Assembly (NCBI GenBank): GCA_016946835.1 | Contig: JACVTC010000059.1 | Location: 555,001 to 602,500, forward strand | Reading direction: 5' to 3' | Length of the DNA: 47,500 bases | Source of the DNA: Neocallimastix lanati (nom. inval.) | Taxonomy: Eukaryota; Neocallimastigomycota; Neocallimastigomycetes; Neocallimastigales; Neocallimastigaceae | Shown here: piece after piece, positions 32,701-33,681 of the stretch | Numbering within the stretch: position 1 is the first letter of the stretch | How the letters are laid out: every line of letters begins with the position of its first letter | Notes under the pieces: model-generated | Databases searched by the model: none | Told to the model about the DNA's origin: nothing | The model's input: the letters and a program-made list of their open reading frames with translations, nothing else | Position numbers and translations under genes: made by a program

Positions 32701-33681
32701 AATGGTACTAATAATAATACAGTTTTAGATAATAACAACAATAATAAAAATAATCAAAATAAAATAAATTATCCATTAGATAAAAATAATAAAAATTATT
32801 ATAATAATGATGTTATTACAATTTTAGATGGTAATTCTTTAATAAATTCAGAATTTAGCAATAATAATAATAATAATAATAATAATAATAATAATAATAA
32901 TAATAATAATAATAATAATAATAATAATAATAATAATAATAATGAAAGTAAGATTAATAATACTGAAATTAATAAAATTTGTGATGTTAATAAAAGTAAC
33001 TGGAATAATAATGTTAGTTTATCAAATATAAATAAAAATCAAGATTTTCAATCTCCAAAATTTTTAAATAATCGTACATTTGAGCCAATAATAAAACCAT
33101 ATCAAGAAAAAGTAAAATATAATACAAATGAAATGATCATAGAATATCATGATATAGAAGAATTAATAAAACAATGGATAGAAGTATTTAGCAATACAGA
33201 TTGTAATATTAAAACTATTAGTTTTAATGAAAATTATGAATATTATGAAAAATTAACAAAATTTATCGGAAAAGTTCAAAATAAAATAATTGAATCACTA
33301 TGTTGGCATGTGGGTCAAGGAGCAAATTTACATAAAGTCGTTGCATTAATGACATTCTTTGAAAGATATCCTTTTAAAAATCTTATTATTGATTTTATAT
33401 ATATTATTTTTAATTTATACTAATGAATTCCAAACATTTATATATATATATATATATATATTTAAGACTATTATTCTTAATCCAATTTTTTTATTCCTTA
33501 ATTATTATTGTCTCATACATTAATTAATAGCTGTAGTATTGAATGTCAGTGGGATTGTAGTTTTCATTATGAAGGAAAACTATTTTATTATCATCTTTAT
33601 AAAAATTTACAAAAAGAATGTAAAAAACATTACGAAGGAAACAAATTAAATATTAAATATCCAAAAATAATGAAATTATAA
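26800..33681 (+). CDS. REV1: DNA repair protein REV1 (Y-family polymerase)
   Basis: Deoxycytidyl transferase and scaffold of translesion synthesis. Twenty-three exons (26800-26921, 27013-27074, 27189-27240, 27496-27529, 27627-27666, 27915-28051, 28133-28479, 28585-28693, 28771-28799, 28940-29025, 29152-29200, 29298-29349, 29435-29522, 29645-29909, 30029-30041, 30131-30159, 30241-30309, 30427-30529, 30695-30940, 31067-31124, 31402-32360, 32446-33365, 33519-33681) keep phase, giving 1343 aa. BRCT domain at about 51-140 (LHGGQYEYYHVNMITHIIA). Palm HVDMDCFFV (Asp304) and VSCDEAYIE (Asp401/Glu402) are intact. ITWGIRFSN and EIRGIGIQLSKL lie in the little finger. Two ubiquitin-binding motifs (VLNELPPSIQQEL about 841-857, VMNELPISIQEEL about 984-1004) sit among Asn runs. 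The C-terminal domain (about 1215-1343) is completed only by the last U12-type intron. Exon 19 could alternatively end 9 nt later. Confidence 0.93.
31197..31398. repeat. Intronic (TTTA)n tetranucleotide array in REV1
   Basis: About 49 perfect TTTA units fill almost all of intron 20 of REV1 (31125-31401), ending a few nt before the TTTTTATAG acceptor, so the array may serve as the pyrimidine-rich tract. Confidence 0.93.
31629..32942 (+). repeat. Exonic (AAT)n runs encoding poly-Asn in the REV1 linker
   Basis: Pure AAT blocks (about 31629-31673, 31719-31840 with one ATT, 32130-32165, 32603-32672, 32860-32942) expand the region around the two ubiquitin-binding motifs of REV1. Flanking sequence is also Asn-rich but uses mixed codons. 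Confidence 0.9.
33366..33518 (+). other. U12-type AT-AC intron (last intron of REV1)
   Basis: Donor ATATCCTTT (33366-33374) and branch site TTCCTTAAT (33494-33502) are full consensus matches. Acceptor AC (33517-33518) lies 17 nt past the branch A, the optimal U12 spacing. The exons join GAA AG|A TTA ATT, phase-correct. The result, MTFFERLINSCSIECQWDCS, follows the REV1 C-terminal pattern of animals (YMKRLMQQSVESVWNMAF). Retention would end the protein at the TAA at 33421-33423. An AG at 33529-33530 would not change the downstream frame but fits the AT donor less well. Confidence 0.92.

Follow-up and report, generated by a model that had tools for sequence, protein, structure and literature searches.

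A predicted U12-type AT-AC intron before the last exon of REV1, and an altered U6atac element, in Neocallimastix lanati

The window, the whole stretch of 47.5 kb analysed here, has a G+C content of 15.8% and belongs to an assembly of 199 Mb in 762 contigs. On its forward strand, we built by hand a multi-exon model of REV1 that reads as a single open frame (Table 1). A Pfam scan of the 1346-residue product returned both a BRCT domain (BRCT_2, 52 bits) and the core of a Y-family polymerase (IMS, 136 bits; thumb, 93 bits), together with IMS_C and weak matches to the ubiquitin-binding UBM motif. The linker encoded at 31402-33100 carries long asparagine runs derived from AAT repeats. Of the introns in the model, 21 of 22 are GT-AG; the sole exception is the last, an AT-AC intron.

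Table 1. Coordinates of the features described. Positions are those of the window unless a locus (L) is given.
Feature	Position	Strand	Basis
REV1 gene model, 23 exons, 22 introns, 1346 aa	26800..33681	+	single open frame; Pfam BRCT, IMS, thumb, IMS_C, weak UBM
Penultimate coding exon, with the first part of the predicted REV1 C-terminal domain	32446..33365	+	exon model
Predicted U12-type AT-AC intron, 153 nt, phase 2	33366..33518	+	motifs, frame, best REV1_C match of 20 ends, design common to 11 other introns
5' splice site ATATCCTTT	33366..33374	+	sequence
Branch site TTCCTTAAT, predicted branch A 33501	33494..33502	+	motif; predicted U12 pairing
3' splice site TAC	33516..33518	+	first AC/AG at least 8 nt beyond branch A
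Read-through extension, stop at end, REV1_C match lost	33366..33423	+	frame and Pfam
REV1 final coding exon	33519..33681	+	frame to stop TAA 33679-33681
U6atac gene	L008:1501-1649	-	Rfam; AGCCGA for AAAGGA
U6atac gene	L009:1501-1646	+	Rfam; AGCCGA for AAAGGA
U11 candidate	L011, about 1490-1515		reads AAAAAGAAUAGGC; Rfam consensus AAAAAGGGC
AT-AC introns, branch motif and acceptor 33-90 nt apart	L049, L054, L055, L060, L063, L068, L071, L082		spacing far above the 11-13 nt optimum

The last intron opens in the context AG/ATATCCTTTT, and its first nine nucleotides agree with the U12-type 5' splice site RTATCCTT. The branch motif is close to TTCCTTRAY and is predicted to pair with the U12 RNA of this genome (-8.3 kcal/mol, versus -9.2 kcal/mol for the Rfam consensus). 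The AC at 33517-33518 lies 17 nt beyond the branch A, somewhat past the optimum of 11-13 nt given for minor introns in the available part of one account (PMC3584512). Joining 33365 to 33519 restores AG/A in phase 2 and leaves the frame open to the stop codon. An earlier note on this DNA had given the same donor, branch, acceptor and spacing, as well as the in-phase join, and all of these agreed with the sequence. The note also termed the intron 'textbook' U12-type. The motifs bear this out, but the spacing exceeds the optimum and the genome's U6atac mismatches the donor, as described below. The donor, TTCCTTAAY and TAC together occur once on the forward strand of the window and not at all on its reverse strand. 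In 400 second-order Markov simulations of the forward strand, the motif set was matched four times, corresponding to about 0.01 expected matches per strand.

Candidates for the minor-spliceosome RNAs were identified using whole-genome Rfam searches, with 14 control genomes. Candidates for U12 (56.8 bits; cut-off, 53), U6atac (two genes, 57.4 and 56.4 bits; cut-off, 33) and U11 (40.5 bits; cut-off, 39) scored above their thresholds; a U4atac candidate, at 47.2 bits, was under its cut-off of 53. None of the 14 control genomes contained a match to any of U11, U12, U4atac or U6atac. The U4atac and U6atac candidates form a long predicted duplex (-27.2 kcal/mol). In addition, a U11-48K gene matched PF05253 at 33.9 bits, a family also matched in one of the 14 control genomes, an archaeon; when its exon pieces were assembled by eye, the product matched the U11/U12 48K chain of PDB entry 8r7n (E = 2e-11). 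The best predicted duplex between the donor and U11 of this genome (-4.9 kcal/mol, versus -6.1 kcal/mol for the consensus) does not use the U11 5' end. If that end lies at AAAAAG, it could pair with CUUUU of the donor.

In both U6atac genes, GUGUUGUAUGAGCCGAGAGACAG stands in place of the GUGUUGUAUGAAAGGAGAGAAGG of the Rfam consensus, such that AGCCGA replaces the AAAGGA 5' splice-site element. Searched exactly, the U6atac pattern had no match in viral contigs and none in prokaryote contigs. The replacement of AAAGGA removes the normal pairing with ATATCCTTT, and the helix predicted with ATATCCTTTT has an energy of -3.0 kcal/mol, versus -8.4 kcal/mol for the Rfam consensus. The AAAGGA element is thought to be needed for activation, and pairing of U6atac with the donor is reportedly required in vivo. 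U6atac can also work with a U6 functional domain, so some tolerance is known (PMC3584512, in the portion available). The two genes are 98% identical over their first 58 nt and 91% identical over the rest; their flanks are 94% identical over 100 nt upstream, 97% downstream and 64% further upstream. As they are close duplicates, the shared AGCCGA is not strong evidence of selection. We also searched for donors that would suit the altered element, ATATCGGY followed by a U12 branch. These were not enriched (25 matches versus 22 in the control). Twelve of the 25 were viewed in context and none was convincing as an intron; the other 13, judged from the listed stretch alone, look like copies of three of the 12.

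Alternatively, the AGCCGA genes might not be working U6atac genes, and an undetected U6atac with AAAGGA might serve the introns, in which case the U6atac side would be ordinary. The reported need for donor pairing in vivo would favour this, as would the ATATCCTTT donors of the introns found here, a uniformity that is due to the search design. However, a genome-wide search (199 Mb) in which half of the six-nucleotide element was left open and up to three mismatches were tolerated elsewhere recovered these two genes and no others. Moreover, both AGCCGA genes exceed the Rfam cut-off, and the U4atac candidate fits the AGCCGA U6atac in the long predicted duplex. We therefore regard a hidden normal U6atac as less likely than not.

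Sister introns were sought genome-wide using the strict ATATCCTTT donor and a downstream TTCCTTRAY within set gap ranges. This design makes the count of introns a minimum and rules out donor variation among those accepted. At a gap of 32-92, there were 20 matches versus 8 in the control; at 92-152, the range that includes REV1, 17 versus 18; and at 10-40, using a looser branch motif, 6 versus 7. Thus, matches exceeded the control at a gap of 32-92 only and not in REV1's own range or at 10-40. The 43 rows (20 + 17 + 6) represent 41 distinct places, as two were listed twice (L001 = L051, L005 = L064). A filter was applied that joined to the first AC or AG located 8 nt or more beyond the last branch motif and required 60 nt of open frame on either side; 17 of the 43 rows passed it. 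Context was viewed for all 20 matches at 32-92 and, among the 17 at 92-152, for REV1 and five others, the other 11 being judged from their listing lines. Five places that passed the filter (L056, L058, L070, L081 and L084) were rejected by eye, and none of the six candidates at 10-40 was accepted when judged in context.

Based on frame and context, 12 of the 41 places were accepted as coding AT-AC introns, eight from the gap of 32-92 and four from 92-152. Ten are in the frame of the filter; the two RPL27 copies are in another, in which a short exon fails the 60-nt open test. The set comprises REV1, RPL27 (twice), eIF2A, an IFT144/WDR19-like gene, RasGEF_N, tubulin-tyrosine ligase (TTL), an RPC82/POLR3C-like gene, CDC24-OB, and three genes without an informative family (L052, L054 and L078). 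These three, with no family or with weak coiled-coil matches, were accepted on frame alone.

Several spliced products provided evidence for the joins. Pfam matches above cut-off spanned the junction in RPL27, eIF2A, RasGEF_N and TTL. The RPL27 match was to KOW (1-23), with 18 residues upstream of the junction; the peptides from the two copies are identical, and one was sent to Pfam and PDB. Spliced RPL27 and eIF2A also aligned to PDB chains across the junction, the best matches of RPL27 presumably being yeast proteins. For the IFT product, the junction-spanning Pfam match was just under cut-off, with PDB support at E = 1.5e-8. Finally, Pfam matches of the CDC24-like product (OB1 and OB2, separated by the junction) and the RPC82-like product were under their cut-offs, and a PDB search with the RPC82-like piece returned no match. 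Among the places searched, L080 and L053 carry tandem CBM_10 (dockerin-like) modules, which, together with the IFT144/WDR19-like gene and the PDB matches of RPL27, agree with an anaerobic fungus of the Neocallimastigomycete type.

The acceptor is TAC in all 12 introns. In each of them, splicing is placed at the earliest AC or AG that lies 8 nt or more beyond the branch A. This rule was built into the selection, so its outcome shows that it yields sensible joins. The distances from the branch A to the last C were 11, 13, 17, 18, 33, 34, 35, 40, 42, 53, 74 and 90 nt. Spacing therefore exceeds 30 nt in 8 of the 12 introns (8 of the 11 sisters), and the value for REV1 falls in the ordinary part of the range. 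In 8 of the 12, the nucleotide after the branch AA is C, versus a background of 16% (p = 1e-4, taking the RPL27 copies as independent). The two RPL27 paralogues share 16 nt at the donor as well as TTCCTTAACCAAT and the acceptor, whereas their introns have otherwise diverged. This final C of the branch motif and the RPL27 comparison support the distant motifs as probable branch sites.

A related search using GTATCCTTT donors yielded 8 matches versus 2 in the control; all 8 were viewed in context. Two of these places, L012 (TCP-1 chaperonin) and L013 (methyltransferase), are GT-AG introns by frame. Their branch-like motifs are 76 and 51 nt, respectively, from the AG and, in L013, an AC lies closer to the branch than the AG used. 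For these reasons, their class was left undecided.

We evaluated the 3' end of REV1 by sending 20 alternative C-termini to Pfam: the AT-AC join described above, 6 GT-AG joins, 5 GC-AG joins, 3 AT-AG joins, 4 other AT-AC joins and the read-through. With donors at 33290-33420 and acceptors at 33440-33639, there are 6 GT-AG, 5 GC-AG, 45 AT-AG and 35 AT-AC in-frame combinations, the last number including the proposed join. Coverage was thus 6/6 for GT-AG, 5/5 for GC-AG, 3/45 for AT-AG (those with an ATATCC donor) and 4/34 for other AT-AC. The proposed join had the best REV1_C score of the 20 ends, 15.6 bits (14.9-15.6 bits across scans), short of the family's gathering score (26.5). The match extends over profile positions 28-71 and residues 54-92 and crosses the junction, residue 78 of the tested C-terminus being encoded by the codon that the intron interrupts. 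The only other match, 13.0 bits over positions 28-58, was from a contrived AT-AC join, 33368-33580. The remaining 18 ends, including all GT-AG, GC-AG and AT-AG joins tested and the read-through, had no REV1_C match.

The earlier note had stated that the spliced C-terminus follows the REV1 C-terminal domain. This holds in so far as the join is the best of the 20 ends, but the score is sub-threshold and REV1_C is not listed at E up to 1 in the scan of the full 1346-residue protein. As a planned single-family test in a known REV1 protein, the match is still meaningful, and the support it lends to the predicted join is real but weak. The best REV1_C-like end is obtained only when the predicted AT-AC intron is removed. 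Searched against PDB sequences, the spliced C-terminus had no match at E up to 10, and the sole protein matched in a protein database search was the window's own read-through ORF. The genome contains no second copy of the REV1 C-terminal exons, so there is no paralogue to compare.

The segment might instead be spliced elsewhere: at GT-AG or GC-AG pairs by the major spliceosome, to an AT-AG acceptor at 33530, 33536 or 33560, or at another AT-AC pair. This region offers many in-frame combinations for such splicing, and the 33368-33580 product retains its weaker REV1_C match. However, the domain was absent from the products of all six GT-AG, all five GC-AG and the three ATATCC-donor AT-AG joins, and the local GT donors read GTGGGT, GTCAAG, GTCGTT and GTTGCA, versus GTA in 18 of the 21 GT donors of REV1. 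With 3 of the 45 AT-AG and 4 of the 34 other AT-AC joins sampled, we consider such splicing very improbable. Equally improbable is that the segment stays unspliced and REV1 stops at 33423 with its C-terminal domain truncated or lost: no earlier stop interrupts the read-through frame after the donor, but, as the earlier note had it, similarity is then lost, an in-frame exon with REV1_C-like sequence begins exactly after the AC, and sister introns in conserved genes need splicing for complete proteins.

Based on the motifs, the frame, the best REV1_C join, the candidate minor machinery including U11-48K, and the 11 sister introns, we consider it very probable that the last REV1 intron is genuinely of the U12 type, as had been proposed. 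We are highly confident in the corresponding prediction that this AT-AC intron is U12-dependent and is removed by the minor spliceosome, completing the C-terminal domain. In the proposed mechanism, U11 and U11-48K would recognise the ATATCCTTT donor, and U12 would pair with TTCCTTAAT, leaving A33501 free. U6atac would engage the donor via a weakened or different contact, the first AC downstream of the branch would serve as the 3' splice site, and joining of 33365 to 33519 would complete the domain. Both the splicing of transcripts at these sites in the cell and the mode of U6atac contact are what we infer from the genome. More tentatively, and with somewhat less than even confidence, we propose that this minor spliceosome keeps the ATATCCTTT donor with a U6atac that lacks AAAGGA, recognition of the donor falling to U11, U11-48K and further proteins instead of the usual U6atac helix, and that its branch-acceptor rule is relaxed to as far as 90 nt, with scanning to the first AC.

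The earlier note described minor-class introns as absent from most studied fungi and was unaware of those published for this group. In Physarum, the minor system departs from consensus. In Cyanophora, the minor machinery 'may have transformed', according to the available text of PMC10639083. These systems resemble the present one, as far as the source extends, in having minor snRNAs or motifs off consensus; here, by contrast, the intron motifs are canonical, by search design, and it is U6atac that departs. U12-type AT-AC introns occur in animals, plants and the early-branching fungi Rhizopus, Phycomyces and Rhizophagus (PMC2846911, PMC10639083; both in part). The introns described here share with them ATATCCTTT, TTCCTTAAY, AC, four minor snRNA candidates and U11-48K, but differ in their spacing of 11-90 nt versus the optimum of 11-13 nt and in the altered U6atac element, judging from the same excerpts. 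Minor introns, along with many minor snRNAs, have been reported for Neocallimastigomycetes, among them Neocallimastix californiae and Piromyces finnis (Larue and Roy 2023, PMC10639083, available in part). The likeness to those species, on that text, consists of minor introns, many minor snRNAs and, by inference, the same fungal class; the REV1 intron is thus a further member of a reported class. The accessible portion of that paper contains no gene list, U6atac sequence, spacing data or mention of REV1. The U6atac and spacing features are likewise unmentioned there and may already be in print elsewhere.

The comparative evidence indicates that, in this fungus, the coding of the end of a conserved repair polymerase depends on a minor-class intron. 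Gene prediction restricted to GT-AG introns would miss the last exon of REV1 as well as exons of the sister genes. Further, the introns and snRNA set offer a natural setting in which to test two requirements accepted for U12-dependent splicing: pairing of U6atac with the donor and a short branch-acceptor distance.

Elsewhere in the window, two ORFs were recognised by eye. A long ORF at 18970-20904 on the reverse strand has a transmembrane-like N-terminus and a core resembling cyclic-nucleotide phosphodiesterases, and a 136-residue ORF at 46941-47351 on the forward strand resembles TCTP.
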